NCBI GenBank assembly: GCA_030156615.1
Contig: JASGME010000007.1
Coordinates: forward strand, 1 to 43,142
Direction of reading: 5' to 3'
DNA length: 43,142 nucleotides
DNA from: Candidatus Woesearchaeota archaeon
Lineage (GTDB): Archaea > Nanobdellota > Nanobdellia > Woesearchaeales > UBA119
The first letter of the stretch is position 1; each line of letters starts with the position of its first letter. The notes below the pieces were generated by a model. It was given only the letters and a program-made list of their open reading frames with translations. It searched no databases and had not been told where the DNA came from. Positions 1 to 11,586 of the stretch are shown here, one piece after another. Made by a program: the position numbers and the translations under genes.

Positions 1-3000
1 AAATCTATTAGTCTTTGCCAATTTTGATGAGCAGTTGGATATACCCAACCACATACAGCTATTTCACCACCTAATGAAAAGTCATTTACATCTATATAAT
101 CCCCATCACCATCAAATTCATATGCTCCACCAACTCTACCTTCACGGGTGTTAGAGGCATCTCCATAAACAGTTCCGTGATTAGCATTTCCTGAGGAATC
201 CTTAGCATCATTATCCAATGTCCAATATCCAACAAGAGAACTTTCGTTCTTCCTATGACTTCCTATGTAAGGAGTGTCATGTGTTGGAACGAAATCCCAG
301 AAGCCGTTTATACAATAATAGCCGTTCCAGCTCTCTCCTGAATCTATGCAAACTCCTTCTGAATTTACACAATCTGTAGCAGAATCACAACAGGCTGAAT
401 AATATGTGCCTGATATGGATGTATTTCTGAAGTTCTCGCCAGGATCATCACCGCAACATTCTGTCTCAGAACCAGTTGTATATTCGCCAAAGCCTATAGA
501 TTCTCCACCTTTAGCCCAAACAAATGCTATGCAATCATTATCTCCTTTTGTGCAATACTCAGCTGCTTCATCTCTGTCTCTGGCAAGACAGCCTCCATCA
601 CAATAGATATCAGAAGTTTCATTAACAACGCAATAATATGGAGCAGTATCATCACATGCCGGATCAGCTGCACAATCAAATTGACATAATGAATTTTGAT
701 CAGAACATCTTGTAGCTCCTGCACCACAAACAGTGCATTGGAAGCATTTGTTATCATCTGTAATCAGGCCATACAAAGGTTCAACTGCTCCATTCTCTGC
801 ATCACAGAAAGATGTTTGCTCAGCACATTCTGAGTTCTGCTGGCATCCTGCACATCCATCCGGAATGCCGTATTGCCAGTATGCTGGAGAGCCGTCTCCA
901 TCACAATAATATCCTGAATCAGATGCTTCCTGACAATTTGCTATTTCTGTTTCTATACCAAGAGTATGCTGATTGTTACAATCGTACAACTGTCCATTGT
1001 AGCAAAGGATTGCTCCACTTGCATTTCCGCTGTTTAGAACAGAAGCATTGTAGCAGCACGAAGCTCCTGTTGCTTCTGTCTGCTCAAAGAATTCATTAGG
1101 ATCATCGCCGCAGCAAGGAGAGTTTGTTCCAATTCCGTTCGATAACCAATCCTGAGAGAAACAACTACATGAGTCACTTGAAACATCTCCATCAAGTGTT
1201 TTTACACCTTCATGGCAATACCAACTACCTCCTGCACAGAAGACATCTGATACAGAATCATCACCGCAACATCTTAGTTCATTGCTACCTTCTGCATAGA
1301 ACATATCAACATCTACGATACAAGAACATGTTTGCTCGTTATCATCTCCATTGTTGAAATAATAACATGTAGAGTTTATCCAGCCATTGCTTTCATCACA
1401 AGCATTGCCTGTCTTCTCATCTGAAGAGATATTCATCGTTGCTGCAGAGTACTCGCATTTTGTGTTTTCATTGCCATCATAATAGATATTATGAGGAGTG
1501 AAACACCAATTGTCATCTGGATCTCCTAATGCATCATTGTCACAGTAACCTGATACGCATGCTTCATCCTCTGATGATGGAGTTGATTCTGCTGTAACTC
1601 CTACACAAATCTCACCATCAATAAGCTTTGGGTGGCACTTATTAGAGGAATTGCAGAAGTAATTTTCAGGACAATCTGCATTTGCATTACAACCCAATGT
1701 GCAATCATTATTTACGCAATGGTAACCTCCTGCTGTGTTACATTCAGCATCTGTATTACAATCGAACCATGTGCCGGCAATGCAATAATCCTTATCCCCA
1801 TCCATATCAACATCAACACCTTGAGCGTCATTTGGATAACATGTATCGTTATATACGCATTTTGTTTCTGAATTACAACATGCATCTGATAAATCTGATA
1901 TAGCATCCATTGTTGCATCAAAGGTGTTTATGATTCTGTATTCGTTCGCATCATCCCCGCAACAATTAGCTATTTCTCCGCCTATGCTCCAATAGAAAGG
2001 AGTACAACCATCAGCATCGCTCGTACAATAACCTTCTGCTTCATCCCTGTCATGATCAGTATAATCACAACCTGTTGAGCTACAGGTTACATTATCCCTA
2101 GCGGTGTTTTGATATGGACAACAAGTTGTCCCTACTCCCTGGCAAGCTAATTGGCATGTTGGACAGCCTGTTCCATTGTAGTAACAGATTGTTGAGCTTG
2201 CATTATAGCAGTATCCTTCTGGACCTCCTCCATAATCACAAATGATTGCAGATATTGGATATTCACAAGTTGAGGGTGAGGCAGGACCTTGATTTAGGGC
2301 GTTATCCCTTGCTGCCACAGTATAACAATTGTAATCAAAGCAGTTTAATCCGGAAGCAGTGTATGGTGATGTTGTTGCATATGTTCCTGCTCCTGTTCCC
2401 GAGATGAAGTAGTCTTTAACTCCTGAAGTTAGGGTTGCAGATTTAACCTCTTTAATTTCTAGATTATCAATGTATCTGAAACTGTTCGCATTTGTGTCAT
2501 ATCCAACATACCAATTATAACCGGTTACCTTTCCGTGCCCAGTAGGAATTGTCTTTACCACAAAAGTATAGTGCCAGTTTCCATCATTAGGAACGTCGCC
2601 TCCTGATGTTGTAGTAGCACTTCCATCTTCAAAATACCAACGAGAATGTAAATACTGATTACATTCAGTACAGCCTGGATCTTCTTTAACCCATGCAGAA
2701 AGCATATAAGTATGTCCTGGCTCAAAAAGTCTATAATCTGGATGAATTTCATACTCAAAACTACCATTTGCATATAAGGAATAATATCCTGAATAAGACT
2801 CCTCGCTAGTTATCCTGTAATCTCCAAAACTTCCAGAGGAGTGATCAACACCGTCCTCAAATCCGGGATGTTCAACGAAATTATCTATGTTTCCTTCATC
2901 ATCATAACTTTTTGTATAATACCAATAATCATCTCCATAATCAGGAACATCAATCCAAGAAACTTTAAGTTCAGATAATGAGATTGCATCTACTGTTGGA

Positions 3001-5603
3001 GCGCTCGGAGTCTCTGGAGGAGTTTTATCATCTGCATCTTCATCTATGTAGTTAATATCTGCAACTAGAGGAGTTAATCTAATATTATCATAACCACCAT
3101 TTCCAGCACTAACATCCCATGCAAACATACCTGTATAACTTGAAGTAGTATAAGTGTTATCTGTTACATCAAAAATTAGCACATCGTTTTTATAAACCTT
3201 AAAGTTTCCATTAGGATGTCTAATTACTTTGAAATGAGCCCAACTTCCATCATTTGTATTTGGCACACTTCCAAGTTCATATGTCGTGCTTCCTGTTGAT
3301 CTTTTGAAGTATATTCTACCACCATAAAAATAAATCAAGTAACCTTGACCTGCAGACATATACATATTTTGGTTGTTATTTGTTAGCCAGAATTCCTGCT
3401 TCTCTGTTTGTTTCATGTCCCATTCCCATATACCATAAGCCTGTGTAGAAGGAGTATATATCTTACTCTGAGAACCAGTAGTTCTTAGATAACCGTTTGA
3501 CACTTCCCAAGAGCCTGCTGTAACAGTCCATGTTGGATTAGAAGTATAATCACCATCATTAAAGTCATCATATAATCCATCTACTGGAGCATATGTGCTA
3601 GTGCTTGCATTAGCTCTTGATATCCCATGTTGAATTAATCCAGATTGATATAAGTTGATGATTTCTTCTTGTGATAAAGAGCGGTTGTAGATTACTACTT
3701 CGTCGATGAGACCGTTGAAGTAGCCATATGCTCCACCACCAATCTCAATTGGTGCATAAACAAGCGATTTTGGAGAAGTCAAGCCTGTATGAACTGCTAC
3801 ACCATTTAAGTATATAGTAGGCTGTTTGTTGTTATAAACAACAATTATATGATTCCAGTCTGTTCCAATATCCGATGCATAAACAGCGATTGCGGGCATG
3901 TAATAATCACCGTGCTCGTAAACAGAAATTCCGTTCGTTCCGACGGATAAACCAGCACCACCATTTGTTCCCTTGTTTTCTGCGCCAAAAGCATATCTCT
4001 GACCACTTGTTCCGACTGTGCCGCTTGTGGATTCGGGATCTATTTGATGAGTCACAGATGTTTTAAACCAACCTCCAAAAGTAAATGTGTTTGTTGGTCT
4101 TCCAGTTGTTCCTATAACTACCTTATCATCAACTCCGTCAAAGCTCAAGGCCTTCCCTGTATAGGGATCATTATTGCCATCAGTCCAACTTGCTCCATAA
4201 ATCGTGCCATCATTATGCTCAGGGCTCCAATCCCTCGCTATGCTCCCAGAACCTTCTTCAAAAGGTAAGTATAAGACTAATCCGTCATCCTGCTCAGCAA
4301 TGCTTATCAAAATGTTGTCGTTAGCATCATTAGAAGGGGTTAATGCAATGGAAGGAGAAGCAGGTCCTGTTCTGTCAGAAGTGATGTTGCAAAGCTCATC
4401 AGACCATTCACTATAATGACTAACTTCATCTGTCAATCGGACCCTATAACAATGTCTTGAATTGTCTGACAGGCCTGCATCGATGTATTCTGTAGAAGAA
4501 GATGTGTAGATTGTGTTGCTGTCTCTTTGAAGTTCATAGATGTAACCAGTTGGCCTGTCTCCTGAAACAATGATTTTAAAACCGCCCAATTCACTGTTTA
4601 GGCTGTAATTGGTTAAAGGAGTTACGCTATCAACAGAAGGTGTTGGCAAGACTACGCAATCATTATTGCTGCAGAAGTATCCTTCTCCACATTCGGCATC
4701 TGTATTGCAATCAAACCAGGTCCCAGCATTACAGTAATCCTTATCCCCGTCTTCATCAATATCGTAATCAACATTACCTGAAGCATAACAACTATCATTG
4801 AATATGCATGAACTTGCTGAGTAACAACAGGCATCGCTATATTCAACTAAAGAATCTAAGGATAGATGATAGATTGACTCTAAGTAGTATTCGCTAGCAT
4901 CATCCCCGCAACAATCAGTTATTTCTCCGCCTATGCTCCAATCTTTGCCTAAGTCTCCAGTCGTAGCATCCGGAACACAATGACAGGTTTCATTGTTGTC
5001 ATCACCATCTGAATAGAAAACACAAGAATCATCAACAAAACCAAAGGTGTCATGACATTCATTTCTTAATTCATCTGAATAATCATCTAAAGATGGTGAA
5101 GCTGATTTCTCACATTTATGATCTTGATTATCGTATATACCTGATTCAGTGGTGAAACACCAGCCATCATCTTCTTTTCCTACAGCATCATTATCACAAT
5201 AGCCAGAGGAACATGCTTCATCTTCAGATAATGGTGTTGACTCAAAAGTGGCACCTATACATGTCTGACCGTCTGAAAGCTTCTCCTGACAGAATTGATT
5301 AATATTGCAGAAATAGCCATCTGGGCAATCTATATTCTGAGTACAGTAGAAGGCAGAATAGGGTTCAAAGAAACCTATATTTGCCTCAAGATTTGTGCCT
5401 GTTGCATTCGCACCCGACTGATATGCTGTGCCTAGAGAACGACTGCCATCTGACTGTTCCGCCCCTGCAATCCCTGTTGTAGTTCTTCTTATGTAGTAAT
5501 TTGCTGACGAAGCCTGAAAAGCATTTATAACTTGTGATGAGAGTAAAACTAATAGAATAATAAAAACTCCGATTACCAGTAAGTTCTCTTTTGACAGCTG
5601 CAT
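1..5603 (-). CDS. Giant secreted LamG / Cys-rich surface protein (3' end cut by window edge)
   Basis: I read this frame codon by codon from ATG 5603 to base 1 and found no stop, so at least 1,867 residues are present and the C-terminus lies outside. The N-terminus is a short basic stretch followed by a hydrophobic segment (about residues 8-27), a signal peptide or anchor. The order seen is: Cys-rich modules (about 85-320); an FN3-like segment (320-430); a LamG/concanavalin-like domain (440-655, with FDGVDD, WNHIIVVY and GLIDEVVIYNRSLS); a second concanavalin-like domain (670-850); a carbohydrate-binding-like jelly-roll segment (about 905-1050); a long Cys-rich stretch (1050-1780); and a last LamG domain from about 1787 (VGYWTLDNDAKDSSG). 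The motif CCGDD occurs near residues 231, 1214, 1445, 1497 and 1716. It is the last visible gene of a surface operon, 7 bases after the preceding gene. A sugar- or surface-binding adhesin is inferred from the domains; no catalytic motif is recognised. Confidence 0.9.
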   Translation of the reverse strand, partial: MQLSKENLLVIGVFIILLVLLSSQVINAFQASSANYYIRRTTTGIAGAEQSDGSRSLGTAYQSGANATGTNLEANIGFFEPYSAFYCTQNIDCPDGYFCNINQFCQEKLSDGQTCIGATFESTPLSEDEACSSGYCDNDAVGKEDDGWCFTTESGIYDNQDHKCEKSASPSLDDYSDELRNECHDTFGFVDDSCVFYSDGDDNNETCHCVPDATTGDLGKDWSIGGEITDCCGDDASEYYLESIYHLSLDSLVEYSDACCYSASSCIFNDSCYASGNVDYDIDEDGDKDYCNAGTWFDCNTDAECGEGYFCSNNDCVVLPTPSVDSVTPLTNYSLNSELGGFKIIVSGDRPTGYIYELQRDSNTIYTSSSTEYIDAGLSDNSRHCYRVRLTDEVSHYSEWSDELCNITSDRTGPASPSIALTPSNDANDNILISIAEQDDGLVLYLPFEEGSGSIARDWSPEHNDGTIYGASWTDGNNDPYTGKALSFDGVDDKVVIGTTGRPTNTFTFGGWFKTSVTHQIDPESTSGTVGTSGQRYAFGAENKGTNGGAGLSVGTNGISVYEHGDYYMPAIAVYASDIGTDWNHIIVVYNNKQPTIYLNGVAVHTGLTSPKSLVYAPIEIGGGAYGYFNGLIDEVVIYNRSLSQEEIINLYQSGLIQHGISRANASTSTYAPVDGLYDDFNDGDYTSNPTWTVTAGSWEVSNGYLRTTGSQSKIYTPSTQAYGIWEWDMKQTEKQEFWLTNNNQNMYMSAGQGYLIYFYGGRIYFKRSTGSTTYELGSVPNTNDGSWAHFKVIRHPNGNFKVYKNDVLIFDVTDNTYTTSSYTGMFAWDVSAGNGGYDNIRLTPLVADINYIDEDADDKTPPETPSAPTVDAISLSELKVSWIDVPDYGDDYWYYTKSYDDEGNIDNFVEHPGFEDGVDHSSGSFGDYRITSEESYSGYYSLYANGSFEYEIHPDYRLFEPGHTYMLSAWVKEDPGCTECNQYLHSRWYFEDGSATTTSGGDVPNDGNWHYTFVVKTIPTGHGKVTGYNWYVGYDTNANSFRYIDNLEIKEVKSATLTSGVKDYFISGTGAGTYATTSPYTASGLNCFDYNCYTVAARDNALNQGPASPSTCEYPISAIICDYGGGPEGYCYNASSTICYYNGTGCPTCQLACQGVGTTCCPYQNTARDNVTCSSTGCDYTDHDRDEAEGYCTSDADGCTPFYWSIGGEIANCCGDDANEYRIINTFDATMDAISDLSDACCNSETKCVYNDTCYPNDAQGVDVDMDGDKDYCIAGTWFDCNTDAECNTAGGYHCVNNDCTLGCNANADCPENYFCNSSNKCHPKLIDGEICVGVTAESTPSSEDEACVSGYCDNDALGDPDDNWCFTPHNIYYDGNENTKCEYSAATMNISSDEKTGNACDESNGWINSTCYYFNNGDDNEQTCSCIVDVDMFYAEGSNELRCCGDDSVSDVFCAGGSWYCHEGVKTLDGDVSSDSCSCFSQDWLSNGIGTNSPCCGDDPNEFFEQTEATGASCCYNASVLNSGNASGAILCYNGQLYDCNNQHTLGIETEIANCQEASDSGYYCDGDGSPAYWQYGIPDGCAGCQQNSECAEQTSFCDAENGAVEPLYGLITDDNKCFQCTVCGAGATRCSDQNSLCQFDCAADPACDDTAPYYCVVNETSDIYCDGGCLARDRDEAAEYCTKGDNDCIAFVWAKGGESIGFGEYTTGSETECCGDDPGENFRNTSISGTYYSACCDSATDCVNSEGVCIDSGESWNGYYCINGFWDFVPTHDTPYIGSHRKNESSLVGYWTLDNDAKDSSGNANHGTVYGDASNTREGRVGGAYEFDGDGDYIDVNDFSLGGEIAVCGWVYPTAHQNWQRLID

Positions 5604-5610
5604 TTCATCT

Positions 5611-5976
5611 TTACACGCAATTCACATCAATAAGTTCAATTGTAGTGTTTTCTACGAACAAGGGAACTATGCTACAGTTGTCTGCAGCCGTCATTATACT
5701 TATAATGACATCCGTTACTCCTTGATTGTAGAAAAGGTTTATACAGTTTGAATCTATGACTTGCTTAGATAGATTGCCATAGTTTAACTGGATAGCACTA
5801 CAATTGTTTGTAGCATTGTATATCGTTGCAATAACCGCTTCTGAGCCAGCATTGAAAGAATCCTGTTTCATTCTTGCAAATCTTTCAGATGCTGTGTCGT
5901 AAATGATATAGGCAACTAACGCCAACACCACCAAAACGAGAATGGTCATTGCATTTAGCTTTTTTCTTTTTTCCAT
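5611..5976 (-). CDS. Small membrane-anchored exported protein, unknown function
   Basis: This protein of 121 residues has a basic start (MEKRKK), one hydrophobic helix (about 9-26), and then an outward-facing domain. That domain has three cysteines in NC contexts and several N-x-S/T sequons (NAT, NCS, NLS, NTT), as expected for an N-glycosylated archaeal surface protein. Two similar halves can be seen: AIQLNYGNLSKQVIDSNC and SIVPLFVENTTIELIDVNC both place a strand-like segment before an (I)D-x-NC ending, which suggests a small internal duplication. The start overlaps the end of the upstream propeller gene by 22 bases and the giant protein starts 7 bases downstream, so it is almost certainly co-translated with them. 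The helix resembles a pilin-like anchor, but there is no clear class III signal cleavage site. The function is unknown. Confidence 0.8.
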   Translation of the reverse strand: MEKRKKLNAMTILVLVVLALVAYIIYDTASERFARMKQDSFNAGSEAVIATIYNATNNCSAIQLNYGNLSKQVIDSNCINLFYNQGVTDVIISIMTAADNCSIVPLFVENTTIELIDVNCV

Positions 5977-7157
5977 TGTTTCACCCCAAATATTATGAAT
6001 AAAATTCCAACTAATGCTGTAATGCTCCCTATCATTTTGTCTTTTTTAATACTTTCCATTTTTTTATTCATCATATAGAGAGATGAACTTCTCTCATACT
6101 CTTTAAATTTTAAAGAATTATCTTCAACATAAGCAATTTTTATGTCATCATTTGGTGTAACAGATAGGGCATTGAATAGTCCTATGTCTGGCCCTGATGC
6201 TACAACAGTTTTATCAAAGTCAATCAGATTGGATGAATTTAAAAGATAAAGTCCGCTCCAATAGTGTGAATATAATATATATGCTTGATTATTGCTTGTA
6301 GCAGCCCTAAGCAGTGTTTCTGAGCCATCAGCAATTCTTCTTGGATTAAATTCATAGAATTCAGATAAATAGATTCCTTTATCATCGTGATCATAGTATA
6401 CTACATAAGGAGAACTATTCCAAAAGAATAATGCAATTGATGATGCATTCACTTGAAACCTTTTTGATGACCATTCTTCAGACTCAATGTTAAATGTGCC
6501 TAACCTCAGATTCATGTCATCTCTTCCTCTATAACCTACAAAGATGCTTTTATTATCAGATATGCAGTCTATATTCCAGCCTGTTCCTGTTTCAAGAAGA
6601 TGTAGATTTTGCTGAGGATCGGCAAGCATAAGTTTTCTTCCTTCTTCAACATGATATAAAACATAGGGCTTGCCGTTAGCAAGACAAACAGATGAGTACA
6701 TACCTGCATTTAGTCCTGATTTTTCCTTGCTGTCAAGAATTGTTATAGAATCGTTTATTGCCAACAATAGTTTTTCATCGGCGATTGCATAATCTTGGAA
6801 TGAAATATAAAGTGTATCTTTTAATGCTGCAGCTGATATAAAGAAGCCTGTATCTTTACCTCCTTTCAATAATTCTGAATTCCATCTCCTGTCGTTTTTG
6901 TAATAATCTTCTAATGTGTTGTTTGAATAAACATGCTTTATTCCTTCTTTCGTAAGTTCTGCATAGTAGAAGATATGAGGATTATTCTGTGAATCATAAA
7001 CAACATCTACGAATCTTCTTGCAGATTCATTATCTAAAGTATAGTTTTTCCATTCTGGATGCTTTATCTCTATGGCTTTGTCAAGAGAGTATTTATACCA
7101 GAAGAATGAAGAAATAAGGATTAATACTATTCCAATTATTAAAAACAACTTATTCAT
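5955..7157 (-). CDS. Membrane-anchored seven-repeat beta-propeller-like surface protein
   Basis: The protein has 400 residues with a transmembrane helix at each end (about 5-21 and 372-393). The external part between them holds seven repeats of the form x-hydrophobic-YVxYY followed by a turn and a second strand: HIFYYAE, LYISFQD, PYVLYHVE, IFVGYRGRDD, PYVVYYDHDD, AYILYSHY and IKIAYVEDN. Seven such repeats at regular spacing fit a seven-bladed propeller, like the exo-alpha-sialidase-like repeats of secreted proteins. The C-terminal helix is followed by a short basic tail (KQWKKEKS), consistent with a cytoplasmic end. It starts 2 bases after the fibre-like gene and its 3' end overlaps the next gene, so it belongs to the surface operon. 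A binding or scaffold role at the surface is inferred; no catalytic residues were recognised. Confidence 0.8.
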   Translation of the reverse strand: MNKLFLIIGIVLILISSFFWYKYSLDKAIEIKHPEWKNYTLDNESARRFVDVVYDSQNNPHIFYYAELTKEGIKHVYSNNTLEDYYKNDRRWNSELLKGGKDTGFFISAAALKDTLYISFQDYAIADEKLLLAINDSITILDSKEKSGLNAGMYSSVCLANGKPYVLYHVEEGRKLMLADPQQNLHLLETGTGWNIDCISDNKSIFVGYRGRDDMNLRLGTFNIESEEWSSKRFQVNASSIALFFWNSSPYVVYYDHDDKGIYLSEFYEFNPRRIADGSETLLRAATSNNQAYILYSHYWSGLYLLNSSNLIDFDKTVVASGPDIGLFNALSVTPNDDIKIAYVEDNSLKFKEYERSSSLYMMNKKMESIKKDKMIGSITALVGILFIIFGVKQWKKEKS

Positions 7158-7159
7158 TT

Positions 7160-9250
7160 TTATCCTAACATAACTAATGCATTAATCATGCCTTCGCTTT
7201 CATTTAGATAGTCCATTGCCTTTCCAAGGATTGCTCCTTTGCACATTTCTGGATCTGGACATTTCATTGCATAGCCTTCTTTAGATGAGGTTGTTAACAA
7301 ATCTTTTGGCTTTATATAGCCTGACTCATTAGTTACCTTAACAGGAACTATTCCTGATAATGCTAATGGCAATCCTTCTCTATCTACTGCAAGGACATAT
7401 GAAGGATCTGTTGAGATTATGCCTGCAACTGCCGTATCATAGGGCTTGGTTGATTTTTCAACTGTTAATGTCCCCTTTATTACTACTACATCGCCTGGCT
7501 CTAGATCTCCGCTGATATGAACAATTTCTGCAATATCTCCTGTACTTCCTTGGATATTACCTCCTACCTTTACATCATTCTGGACATATAATGAATTGCC
7601 TGCAGGGATATTTGCCTCTGCGTTTGTAGTTGTGTCTGCTATGCCCATAGAGGTTGCATGAAGCTTGTTTACATTTATTATCTTGTTTCCGTTCATATCC
7701 AAGTTTCCTGTCATGGTGTCTCCTGCTTCATTAACATATATGTCACCGGAGCCTCCACTTCCCACATAACTCGCAACAAAGTCATAAACCTGATCATTAG
7801 TTGGGATGGAGTTTGTATCTCCATCTGTTATGGAAGCATCCCCGAGTTCTTTTGCACCTGATCCTGTATCAATAGTTGCAAAGGTTACGGCATCCGTCGT
7901 TCGAACATTCTGGTTCATTAAGTAAACTTCTGTATTGCCCATTCCTGTGTTGACTGTATCCGCATAGAAGTTTCCATTGACATGAAGCTTATATGAAGGA
8001 GATGTTGTCCCGATGCCAACATTGCCGCTTCTTTGAATAACCAATCTCGCTTGATTCGTTCCATGAGCCCAAAATCCAATATTTCCGTCACCAATCGCTG
8101 CAGATGGACCACCAGCATACAATGCCCAGCCAAGATTTCCATAAGTAACAGCACTCAATGTAGGTTTTAATGTCAAAGAAGCTCCTACAACATTGTTATT
8201 TTCAAAAATCACACCACCTCCTGCATTATTATCCCATTCGCTACTAGAAACATATAATTTCCTACTCGGGCTCGCCGTTCCTATTCCAACATTGCCATTA
8301 CTCAAAACTCTTACTCTCTCTGTTCCTGCGGTTACCATCCGAATAGTATCAGCTGCTGGAAAACCGATGTAAGTATCCGTGTCTCCTGAGTGAATCATAT
8401 TGTCGGCTATATAAACATTAGAAAAAGTAGGAGAATCTGTTGTTCGAACATTCTGGTTCATAGCATAAAGTTCATTAGCTCCTTGGCCTGTGTTGACTGT
8501 TGCAAAGGTTACTGCATCTGTTGTTCGAACATTCTGATTCATTAAGTAAACTTCGGTATTACCTATTCCTGTGTTGACTGTATCAGCATAGAAGTTTCCA
8601 GCGACATGAAGCTTATATGAAGGAGATGTTGTCCCGATGCCGACTCTTCCATTGGTATTATCTACATAAAGGGTGTTGGCATTGATGCTATCTGTTGAGG
8701 TGACTAGCTCAACAACGGCTCCTGAATCGGTCCATCCTGAAGCAACGGCTCCTGCAGAGATCTGCTCGCAAACTACAGAACCATCTGTGTTTATGCTTCT
8801 AATAGCGTAGCCTTCTGCACAAGGGTTTATCATAGAGAAATTAAAAAGAGTTTTTGAATTTATATAGCCAAGAGGAGAATAGAATTCTAATCTTTCAATT
8901 GTATTCCCTGAATTATCTAAGAAATCAATATCTTCTGAATTTATCTTGTAATCTTTCCAATACTTCTGGCCATATTCAAGACTTAGAGGATTTGAGGCAT
9001 TCTGACCAAGCATTACATTCCAAGAACCATCTTTTATAGCATCTACAAAAGTTTCACTCCATATAAGAGTTCCGGCTGTGGCAGCATTCCAAATCTCTAC
9101 AGTTAAATCTCCATTATTAACCAAACTGCCTGCTTGCTTAGCCCCTGTGCCCTGATCAGACAATTCTATATTAACTGCTAAACCAATAGGAAGCATAAAA
9201 AAAACAAGCGAAACAATCCATATTTTTTTAATATTCATCCTTGAAGTCAT
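7160..9250 (-). CDS. Secreted fibre-like protein with VGIGTTSP repeats
   Basis: I chose ATG 9250 because MNIKKIWIVSLVFFMLPIGLA, a typical signal peptide, begins at or just after it. ATG 9238 is an alternative, and a GTG at 9301 would lie inside the preceding gene. The mature protein opens with a beta-rich domain of about 130 residues. Repeats follow of the types VGIGT(T/A)SPS(Y/R)KL(H/Y)V and MNQNVRTTD(A/S), each marking a strand-rich shaft segment like those of phage tail fibres. Next comes a hinge with a GDTMTGNLDMNGNKI segment, as in trimeric fibre proteins. The C-terminal region (about 200 residues) has the GDIAE...EPGDVVVI...AGIISTDPSYVLA pattern found after such shafts in bacteria, phages and archaea, related to self-cleaving chaperone-type tips. 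Trimerisation and tip cleavage are inferences. A 143-base direct repeat lies in the shaft-coding part. Confidence 0.85.
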   Translation of the reverse strand: MTSRMNIKKIWIVSLVFFMLPIGLAVNIELSDQGTGAKQAGSLVNNGDLTVEIWNAATAGTLIWSETFVDAIKDGSWNVMLGQNASNPLSLEYGQKYWKDYKINSEDIDFLDNSGNTIERLEFYSPLGYINSKTLFNFSMINPCAEGYAIRSINTDGSVVCEQISAGAVASGWTDSGAVVELVTSTDSINANTLYVDNTNGRVGIGTTSPSYKLHVAGNFYADTVNTGIGNTEVYLMNQNVRTTDAVTFATVNTGQGANELYAMNQNVRTTDSPTFSNVYIADNMIHSGDTDTYIGFPAADTIRMVTAGTERVRVLSNGNVGIGTASPSRKLYVSSSEWDNNAGGGVIFENNNVVGASLTLKPTLSAVTYGNLGWALYAGGPSAAIGDGNIGFWAHGTNQARLVIQRSGNVGIGTTSPSYKLHVNGNFYADTVNTGMGNTEVYLMNQNVRTTDAVTFATIDTGSGAKELGDASITDGDTNSIPTNDQVYDFVASYVGSGGSGDIYVNEAGDTMTGNLDMNGNKIINVNKLHATSMGIADTTTNAEANIPAGNSLYVQNDVKVGGNIQGSTGDIAEIVHISGDLEPGDVVVIKGTLTVEKSTKPYDTAVAGIISTDPSYVLAVDREGLPLALSGIVPVKVTNESGYIKPKDLLTTSSKEGYAMKCPDPEMCKGAILGKAMDYLNESEGMINALVMLG
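7875..8017 (-). repeat. Copy A of a 143-base direct repeat in the fibre gene
   Basis: This stretch aligns without gaps to 8499-8641. I counted 10 mismatches in 143 bases. The copies are 624 bases apart, which is 208 whole codons, so recombination between them would delete or duplicate a shaft unit in frame. Each copy encodes a VRTTDAVTFAT / YADTVNTG / SYKLHV block. Confidence 0.9.
8499..8641 (-). repeat. Copy B of the 143-base direct repeat in the fibre gene
   Basis: This is the partner of the copy at 7875-8017. A third, shorter relative lies around 8438-8500, encoding MNQNVRTTDSPTF instead of MNQNVRTTDAVTF. Confidence 0.9.
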
Positions 9251-9285
9251 GTTTATTCTCTTATTTTTAAATCTTTCTTTAAGCT

Positions 9286-10350
9286 CTAATTCGGAACACA
9301 CTTAAGACCTGAGCCGCAATGATAGCCAGTAGGACAGCCTGCCTGTCCTCCTACATAGGCTGCATAGCCCTTTGCGTAAACATTAAGATTGCTGTTGAAG
9401 GAAACTAGAGGAGTGCCAGCAGTATTAGTTATTAAAAAGTCTGCTCCGTCTGCTGCGGGAACACTCGCAAGCTGGTATATGCCTCCTGCAATGTAGCAGT
9501 TTGTTGTGCTCATTGCGAATCTGTCTGTTCCTCCGACATTTACTATAAATGAGTTTGTCAGCCCTGCTGGAGGGGAACTTGAGGTAGCCATTGTCGGGCA
9601 GAAAAATACAATGTCTCCATCATCATCAATAATTGCAACATTACTTCCAGAAACAGTTGTAATGCTATAGGTTGCCCCATCTATAACTACACCACAACTT
9701 CCTCTTCTCCAATATCCAGAATCACAGACAAAACCATTTAAAGATGCTCCACTAGCATAACATACATTATTATAAACGCAGTCAGAGGCAGCATTGCAAC
9801 ATGCAACATTATCTCCAGAACATGCCCCAACATCACCTATACAAGTTATTTTATATTCGTTAGCATCATCACCACAACAGGTTGTTGCTGCAACCTCCCC
9901 ACCAAGATTGAATCTTCCTAAACCAACCTTACATTGACAATCATTTGCATCTCCATCATAGTTTACATTATACATTAAAGCGCCATTAGGGGTGCAAGCA
10001 GTTCCAAAACAATCTCCGGGAGTATATGAATATTGATAAGTTCCGCTATCTTCATCATAGAAGCGCCATTGAAAGTAATAATCTCCTTCAACAGAGCAAA
10101 ACCTTGGAACATATCCTGTCTTAATGTTATATGAACAGGAATAGCCTCCTGAGCCATCGTGAGCATCGTTTGCAGGGTCTGTATTGCATACAGTGGTCCA
10201 ATCTACAATTACAGTAGTAATAGAAGTAGCGCCTCCTTGCCATATCTTTATTTGATAGTAGTCAGGAGCATTTGATACTGAATAAGTTCCTTTAATGATA
10301 AATAGGAATATGACAGCTATCAACCAAAGTTTATTCCAAGATTTATTCAT
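9286..10350 (-). CDS. Secreted Cys-rich CCGDD-motif protein, first gene of the surface operon
   Basis: This protein of 354 residues has a signal peptide (about 1-24, ending near KGTYS). The first half is rich in cysteine and carries CCGDDANEYK near residue 158, the same motif that recurs five times in the giant protein of this operon. The C-terminal half is a glycine- and alanine-rich beta region without long hydrophobic stretches, ending in a small Cys motif (CPTGYHCGSGLKCVPN). A TATA-like ctttataaa at 10379-10387 (read on the minus strand) stands about 30 bases upstream, and nothing on this strand precedes it, so it is probably the operon's first gene. Disulphide-stabilised exoprotein is the safe description; the binding partner and function are unknown. 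Confidence 0.8.
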   Translation of the reverse strand: MNKSWNKLWLIAVIFLFIIKGTYSVSNAPDYYQIKIWQGGATSITTVIVDWTTVCNTDPANDAHDGSGGYSCSYNIKTGYVPRFCSVEGDYYFQWRFYDEDSGTYQYSYTPGDCFGTACTPNGALMYNVNYDGDANDCQCKVGLGRFNLGGEVAATTCCGDDANEYKITCIGDVGACSGDNVACCNAASDCVYNNVCYASGASLNGFVCDSGYWRRGSCGVVIDGATYSITTVSGSNVAIIDDDGDIVFFCPTMATSSSPPAGLTNSFIVNVGGTDRFAMSTTNCYIAGGIYQLASVPAADGADFLITNTAGTPLVSFNSNLNVYAKGYAAYVGGQAGCPTGYHCGSGLKCVPN

Positions 10351-10492: not shown

Positions 10493-10533
10493 ATTGTCCA
10501 CATGATATATAAATTTTCTTTTTTGTGGACAAT
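10493..10533. promoter_or_regulatory. Perfect 10-base inverted repeat flanking a TATA box
   Basis: ATTGTCCACA (10493-10502) and TGTGGACAAT (10524-10533) are perfect inverted copies separated by 21 bases that contain TATATAAA. Centre-to-centre spacing is 31 bases, about three helical turns, as expected for two protein half-sites on one face of the DNA around a promoter. It lies between the divergent surface operon and the antitoxin gene and could control either. Confidence 0.55.
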
Positions 10534-10600
10534 TGTGTCATCTAAAAAGAACCAAAAGGGTTTTAGAAAATTTTATATAGACAAAAAATACCTAAGGTTT

Positions 10601-10798
10601 GTGGAACTTCAAAACATTGATAGAAGGCTTGAGAGGATTGAAAAAACTTTGAAGTTTATCCAGGAAAACATGGTTGATGTAGATGTGATTATTACAGAAG
10701 AAGAAAGAAGAATGCTTAATGAAAGTATAGAAAATGAGAAATCTGGAAATCTAGTTTCTTTGGAGGAAATTAAAAACGTTCGAAATAAAGCTAGATAA
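10601..10798 (+). CDS. RelB-like antitoxin without an adjacent toxin
   Basis: The reading frame is open from ATG 10502, but the first 33 codons read poorly as protein. GTG 10601 follows a TATA-like ttttatata (10571-10579) by about 25 bases, as in a leaderless archaeal gene. From there the product is 65 residues: a coiled N-terminal helix (IDRRLERIEKTLKFIQENM), then VDVDVIITEEE and a helix ending in LVSLEEIKNVRNKAR. The (D)AD/VDV-x-I(L/I)TEEE pattern with a C-terminal LEE(I/L)K helix is typical of short archaeal RelB/Phd-like antitoxins that wrap a RelE-type toxin. No toxin follows: the next 92 bases are non-coding and the next gene encodes a membrane protein. It may act on a toxin elsewhere, or be a relic. 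Confidence 0.55.
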   Translation: MELQNIDRRLERIEKTLKFIQENMVDVDVIITEEERRMLNESIENEKSGNLVSLEEIKNVRNKAR

Positions 10799-10890: not shown

Positions 10891-11586
10891 ATGCTAAAAA
10901 CTAATGAAATATCTGCAATTGCAGTAACGATATTAATAATTGGCTTAATAATTGGATTCAATGATGGGAGGGCGACATCAAGCATTGATCAATACTGGAT
11001 TAATAACTTAATGATTTGTTTTTTAGCAGTTTTCATCTCAATATCATTAAGGATAGGATTTCAAAAAATGATGGGGAGAAAGTTGGGTTTTGATGCAGAA
11101 TTCAAAACAAATTATATAGGGCTTTTTTTAGGCATATTTACTGCATTCCTGTTCAATGGTCTTGCATATCTCTTCGTGCCGGGAGGAACAAGACTTAAGG
11201 AGAAGGAAGAGATGCATATAGGCAGTCATCCATACATTAAGCGATCTAAGTTTGCTGCTGTTTCTGCATCCGGCTGGGTTGCTACATTAATTATTTTAAT
11301 CATCTCAACGATTTTATCATTCTCTTTTGAAAATCTTTTTATTGAAAAGATGATGCTGACAAATGCTCTTTTATTAATCTATTTCTTAATACCATTGCCC
11401 CCTGAGAGCGATGCCTTCTACATTGCATTCTGGTCAAGGACCTTCTACATATTTCTTCTTGCTTTATCACTTACAATCTCAATCTCTATATTTTTCATGC
11501 CATTGGCAATATCTATAATTTTCTCTCTTGTCTTGGGAGCTTTAGCAACATATCTTTTCTATAGCAAGATAGAATCAAAATCTTAG
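10891..11586 (+). CDS. M50 (site-2 protease)-like membrane protein lacking the HExxH motif
   Basis: The protein has 231 residues with about six hydrophobic helices. The layout follows archaeal M50 family proteins. The segment G-R-K-L-G-F-D-A-E-F (62-71) normally follows the zinc motif at fixed distance. A later SASGWVATLII stretch matches the usual AGPxxNI helix. IPLPPESDAF (about 166) sits where PxxxDG is expected. At the place of HExxH this protein has R54-I-G-F-Q58, so both zinc histidines and the glutamate are absent. By analogy with inactive rhomboids it would be a non-proteolytic membrane protein that binds substrates. The family assignment rests on pattern memory and is moderate. Its 3' end overlaps the convergent pelA gene by 12 bases. 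Confidence 0.6.
   Translation: MLKTNEISAIAVTILIIGLIIGFNDGRATSSIDQYWINNLMICFLAVFISISLRIGFQKMMGRKLGFDAEFKTNYIGLFLGIFTAFLFNGLAYLFVPGGTRLKEKEEMHIGSHPYIKRSKFAAVSASGWVATLIILIISTILSFSFENLFIEKMMLTNALLLIYFLIPLPPESDAFYIAFWSRTFYIFLLALSLTISISIFFMPLAISIIFSLVLGALATYLFYSKIESKS

Follow-up and report, generated by a model that had tools for sequence, protein, structure and literature searches.

Two DPANN systems come closest to the locus analysed here. In an operon of Ca. Nanohalococcus occultus SVXNc, several LamG proteins are encoded together with a trimeric-autotransporter-like protein and a pyocin-knob protein, and a role in host recognition was proposed (PMC10266531). Undinarchaeota and other DPANN archaea also encode LamG (ConA-like lectin) proteins, for which a function in cell adhesion was proposed (PMC7414124). 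For single components, the points of comparison are the pre-neck appendage gp12 of phage phi29, a fibre carrying the autocleaving intramolecular chaperone Peptidase_G2, and the Photorhabdus PLL/PHL propeller lectins, which are the closest solved fold to one of the proteins encoded here (Foldseek E 8e-8).

The locus consists of five genes, A to E. With the nanohaloarchaeal operon it shares its presence in a DPANN archaeon, LamG and fibre-type genes within one operon and the export of the products, while a predicted phi29-type self-cleaving domain, a propeller with two transmembrane segments and a Cys-rich CCGDD module do not feature in the description of that operon (PMC10266531). The first-pass annotation had stated that no known system combines such components, which was too strong given the published LamG/fibre operon. 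By analogy with the system as described there, the LamG/fibre adhesin operon is a type already known in nanohaloarchaea, of which the block described here appears as a variant. The DPANN LamG proteins have in common with our locus the LamG domain and the proposed adhesion, the CCGDD modules and the D-E pair setting the locus apart as far as these proteins are described (PMC7414124). We consider it somewhat better than an even chance (roughly 0.55) that the block serves a Woesearchaeota-type archaeon as an accessory island for cell-surface adhesion, comprising the fibre B, the propeller C, a D-E unit and the secreted protein A.

Gene block and genomic site

The window, i.e. the whole stretch of 43,142 nucleotides analysed, is the entire contig C3 of a genome of 861 kb in 30 contigs (96% complete). 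All five ORFs were located at the start of the contig and on its minus strand, in the order A, B, C, D, E from position 10350 towards 1, in agreement with the single-strand arrangement in the first-pass annotation. Of the junction sizes reported there, the gaps of 2 bases between B and C and 7 bases between D and E and the 22-base overlap of C and D were confirmed, whereas the gap between A and B is 35 rather than 36 bases. The view that all products are exported or anchored is borne out by hydropathy, with a hydrophobic segment opening each of the five products and a second one at the C-terminus of C. The proposed domain content was recovered for the LamG domain of E (Pfam), the tail-fibre families of B (PHROG) and the propeller of C (fold comparison), but FN3 was undetected by Pfam, and the giant gene E is not complete in the window, being truncated by the contig end and continuing on contig C1.

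In the sister species G001 (86% complete, with the relevant site on one contig) the entire block of ~13.6 kb is absent from the same site. There, window 10891-11586 has a homologue (231 aa, 61% identical), and ~115 bases beyond it begin the counterparts of the C1 genes, i.e. two pilin-like genes, a methyltransferase, triose-phosphate isomerase and the next C1 gene. Between the same flanks, the window genome contains A to E, an antitoxin-like ORF and an AbrB-PIN pair, together ~13.6 kb. The five-gene block is an island, since the whole ~13.6 kb is missing at this site in the sister species; gain in the window genome and loss in G001 are indistinguishable from these data. A foreign composition of the island was ruled out, its GC3 of 0.25-0.29 (0.38 for D) being native-like compared to 0.311 ± 0.047. 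The antitoxin-like small ORF (10502-10798, plus strand) lies divergently at the island edge, and its true start may be further in; it has no Pfam match and no counterpart at the G001 site. At the other edge, the pair of AbrB-type antitoxin and PIN toxin (L064 4733-5391) is convergent to the end of E.

Fibre-like protein B and propeller C

Gene B (7160-9250, minus strand) encodes a secreted fibre-like protein of ~695-696 aa starting from the ATG at 9250; an alternative GTG start at 9301 would overlap A. The assignment is supported by matches to PHROG tail-fibre families (E 8e-19) and by a homologue in G261, a genome of another family. An N-terminal domain (8930-9223, minus strand), common to archaeal and bacterial fibre-like proteins in an iterated profile with 51 ORF matches, is followed by a variable shaft (approximate bounds 7900-8650, minus strand) with VGIGT-SP-x2-KL-x-V repeats at residues 203, 321 and 411 and by a C-terminal domain from the DIAE motif onwards (7163-7537, minus strand), which is predicted to be a self-cleaving chaperone of the phi29 gp12 type. 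The N- and C-terminal domains are both widespread in bacteria and archaea, so that B belongs to a broad, known fibre-like class, its named relatives within the same order being Candidatus Woesearchaeota. Superantigen-like and viroporin matches in B were below the cut-off and were dismissed.

A profile built from eight B relatives returned phi29 gp12 entries as the top three matches among 177,635 PDB sequences, and the alignment places the Asp of the GDIAE motif of B at the first residue of the released (mature) gp12 fragment. Peptidase_G2 (PF11962) is matched by three of the eight relatives, with a best E of 5.6e-4, and not by the window copy of B. At the predicted cleavage point the Asp-x-x-Glu motif is nearly invariant, with Asp in 120 and Glu in 119 of 120 relatives. 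The motif Glu is catalytic in the MEROPS G2 family; in the crystal structure of pre-mature gp12 (3suc) a Gln occupies this position. B and gp12 are alike in being fibres with a C-terminal domain starting with Asp-x-Ala-Glu, the profile aligning from the mature Asp, while B differs in being cellular and secreted instead of part of a virion, in having another shaft and in the residue preceding the cleavage Asp, which is Gly in B, Ser in phi29 and usually Ala in the relatives. The similarity between the two is distant only (E 5e-4).

The AlphaFold2 model of the C-terminal domain has a pLDDT of about 97; the prediction covers this domain only, because the aligner misplaced N-terminal fragments in the full-length alignment. 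In the Foldseek search with this model, 3suc had the top query TM score (0.50) and phage capsid decoration proteins scored better by E-value. The fold alone does not decide the kinship to gp12, as the search returns both groups. Taking the sequence evidence together, we predict the C-terminal domain of B to be distantly related to the self-cleaving chaperone of phi29 gp12.

Gene C (5955-7157, minus strand; 400 aa), likewise with a homologue in G261, encodes a protein with N-terminal and C-terminal membrane segments flanking a predicted β-propeller. The AlphaFold2 model (pLDDT 64.5), derived from an alignment of two sequences, is of low confidence in the first blades. Foldseek returned 585 PDB matches at E up to 0.001, largely propellers among the matches listed, with the Photorhabdus lectin PLL5 as the best match (E 7.7e-8, 15% identity). 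The model thus supports a β-propeller fold closest to lectins, in line with the first-pass description of a likely seven-bladed propeller; the number seven is a count by eye from sequence repeats and the best fold matches. C differs from the PLL/PHL lectins by its two membrane segments and its low identity, and we do not assign it to this group because there is neither a Pfam match nor a PDB sequence match up to E 10.

The D-E pair and the CCGDD module

Gene D (5611-5976, minus strand) encodes a protein of 121 aa with a single N-terminal membrane segment and a small outer domain according to hydropathy, and its homologue precedes the E homologue in G262, a genome of another family. Gene E (1-5603, minus strand) encodes a giant secreted protein of at least 1866 aa with a Cys content of 5.6%, the contig end cutting the gene. 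It contains a LamG domain (Laminin_G_3, PF13385; 3660-4139, minus strand) matched with E 8e-22 and 78 bits, compared to a gathering score of 27.6, and alignment to the E homologue of G262 identifies another LamG domain, of which the contig end leaves the first half (6-245, minus strand). On the matching strand, the terminal frame of contig C1 opens within the second half of a LamG domain. This continuation of E (L064 5388-7166, 592 aa) contains LamG at 137 bits (Pfam), and elsewhere in this genome there are zero Pfam LamG matches beyond E and its C1 part. A single uninterrupted ORF of G262 aligns both to E 1481-1853 (48%) and to residues 9-169 of the C1 part (47%), and in G001 one contig carries the homologues of the C1 genes directly next to those of the C3 flank. 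Because of these two independent lines, we take E to be a single gene of ~2,500 aa, as judged from sequence, of which ~65 aa are missing between contigs C3 and C1.

Gene A (9286-10350, minus strand) encodes a secreted Cys-rich protein (354 aa, 6.2% Cys) with one CCGDD module (9706-9939, minus strand; profile A6, E 7.6e-20) and a C-terminal domain. Its orthologues in G262 (C28, E 6e-68) and G261 (C44, E 5e-65) both adjoin a DNA ligase-like gene of ~650 aa (named by eye) and not B. With the same profile, modules were found in E at 4707-4949 (E 2.6e-25), at 1758-2006 (E 8.6e-28) and, weaker, at 978-1169 (E 5e-6), with further CCGDD motifs near 1271 and 458 according to the motif list, all on the minus strand. 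Ten columns are invariant in an alignment of 18 copies; they include CCGDD itself, the Glu three positions later, another CC pair and one more Cys. The module has no match in Pfam or PDB and is an undescribed Cys-rich module spread over the order. VKOR as a disulfide catalyst for the Cys-rich secretome was found in none of six genomes. Elsewhere in the genus, CCGDD genes (L063 6049-9302, L061 5926-10031, L066 4366-10107 and L065 5787-10726) are convergent to members of one protein family, whose pairwise identity is 30-81%, and in three of these four pairs the two genes overlap by or are separated by 3-4 bases.

Conservation, proposed role and rival explanations

Full five-gene synteny was not found, the search covering 60 relatives for each of A to D and 20 for E; these genomes are mostly draft assemblies, in which absences may be gaps. 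Two of the four junctions are kept. B and C are adjacent in G261 with the same 2-base gap, C being 38% identical and B 57% in its N-terminal and 60% in its C-terminal part, with a different shaft; D and E are adjacent in G262 with 55 bases between them. Searches found no C in G262 and no LamG gene in G261. Across 353 genomes of the order, C has a full match in two, the window genome and G261, and weak partial matches in G177 and G254. Of the 35 genomes containing the C-terminal domain of B, six (the window genome among them) have LamG within 6 kb of it, compared to 0.76 expected by random placement (P 5e-5). A D-like gene, three fibre genes and a LamG giant stand in a row in G280, and in G042 a fibre gene of 1010 aa is directly followed by an ORF of 2203 aa that combines subtilase, LamG domains and three CCGDD motifs (L075 7784-14395). 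LamG and the B-type C-terminal domain also occur within one ORF, in G237 (C10 116140-121764; 8127 aa frame) and in G145 (C37 1927-2937; L206). Of the expectation that relatives keep the same gene order, what holds is the conservation of the two junctions and a fibre/LamG clustering above chance, while the order of all five genes is not kept and the sister species is devoid of the block.

This pattern bears directly on the strongest alternative, namely that five unrelated secreted-protein genes were gathered by chance or transcriptional convenience and that only B-C and D-E are working units. The conservation of just these junctions, the placement of A elsewhere in G261 and G262 and the AbrB-PIN pair and antitoxin-like ORF flanking the island, as in gene-capture regions, are in its favour. 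The clustering of fibre and LamG genes above chance across families and the co-occurrence of D-like, fibre and LamG genes in G280 argue against it, so that we regard a fortuitous assembly as a serious but somewhat unlikely alternative.

Returning to the adhesion island as the preferred reading, we infer adhesion as the likeliest role from the LamG domains, the lectin-like propeller, the trimeric-fibre architecture, the export of all products and the published nanohaloarchaeal analogue, and the host-attachment or surface-recognition apparatus suggested by the first-pass annotation is retained in this sense. This is compatible with a model according to which B would be a secreted phage-tail-type fibre whose C-terminal domain acts as an intramolecular chaperone, cutting itself off before the Asp of GDIAE after trimer formation. 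C would be a membrane-anchored outer β-propeller most likely holding or receiving the fibre, an association suggested by the coupling of both genes in two families. D and E would form a second unit of a small membrane protein and a LamG/Cys-rich giant, with E binding glycans, and A may be a secreted relative with the same CCGDD module. Together, A to E might bind the organism to other cells or their polysaccharides, the variable shaft of B setting what is bound. A more specific version is speculative and, in our estimate, rather unlikely as a whole: an undescribed DPANN attachment apparatus in which a phage-type fibre matured by self-cleavage docks on a dedicated membrane-anchored propeller, whose gene starts two bases after that of the fibre, the apparatus being partnered by a Cys-rich LamG giant and passed as an island from lineage to lineage. 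The attachment of Woesearchaeota to their partners is poorly known, and the island supplies named, testable parts in the form of the fibre and its predicted cleavage site, the membrane propeller coupled to it, the pairing of a small protein with a giant and the CCGDD module. Its clean-site absence in the sister species offers a natural with/without comparison for partner range.

The genes might instead contribute to a secreted matrix (biofilm) or to the envelope of the cell itself and not form a device for holding a host. CCGDD proteins are frequent in the order and occur there repeatedly (the phylum-wide sample of 371 genomes has them in 47, of which 42 belong to the same order), this genome has several single-locus paralogues, and fibre proteins with the B C-terminal domain are widespread in bacteria too. 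The absence of the block in the sister species argues against a core envelope role and the variability of the B shaft fits recognition better than structure, making this explanation unlikely. A decayed or domesticated virus or tailocin remnant is very improbable: the C-terminal domain of B is phage-type and present in 233 IMG/VR viral contigs, many matches beginning at the cleavage Asp, and B matches tail-fibre families, but a tblastn search of 50,697 phage records gave no match for the domain, virion genes were not recognised alongside, the bordering genes are cellular or small TA modules, the cellular ones are arranged in the sister species as they are here, each of the five products has a hydrophobic N-terminal segment for export or anchoring, and GC3 is native-like. 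Least probable of all is E or A being a contact-delivered toxin instead of an adhesin. The neighbouring AbrB-PIN pair and a PT-HINT match in D, which is weak (E 0.011, below the cut-off) and was dismissed, might be taken to point to it, but Pfam detected neither a toxin domain in E and its C1 part nor HINT above the cut-off in D, and the PIN pair is an ordinary module, self-contained and encoded on the opposite strand.

Outside the island, the two small pilin-like genes adjoining it (L064 3528-4549) have the same order in the sister species. A perfect 10-base inverted repeat (ATTGTCCACA / TGTGGACAAT, window 10493-10533) around a TATA-like stretch was observed between A and the divergent antitoxin-like ORF and looks like a putative operator.
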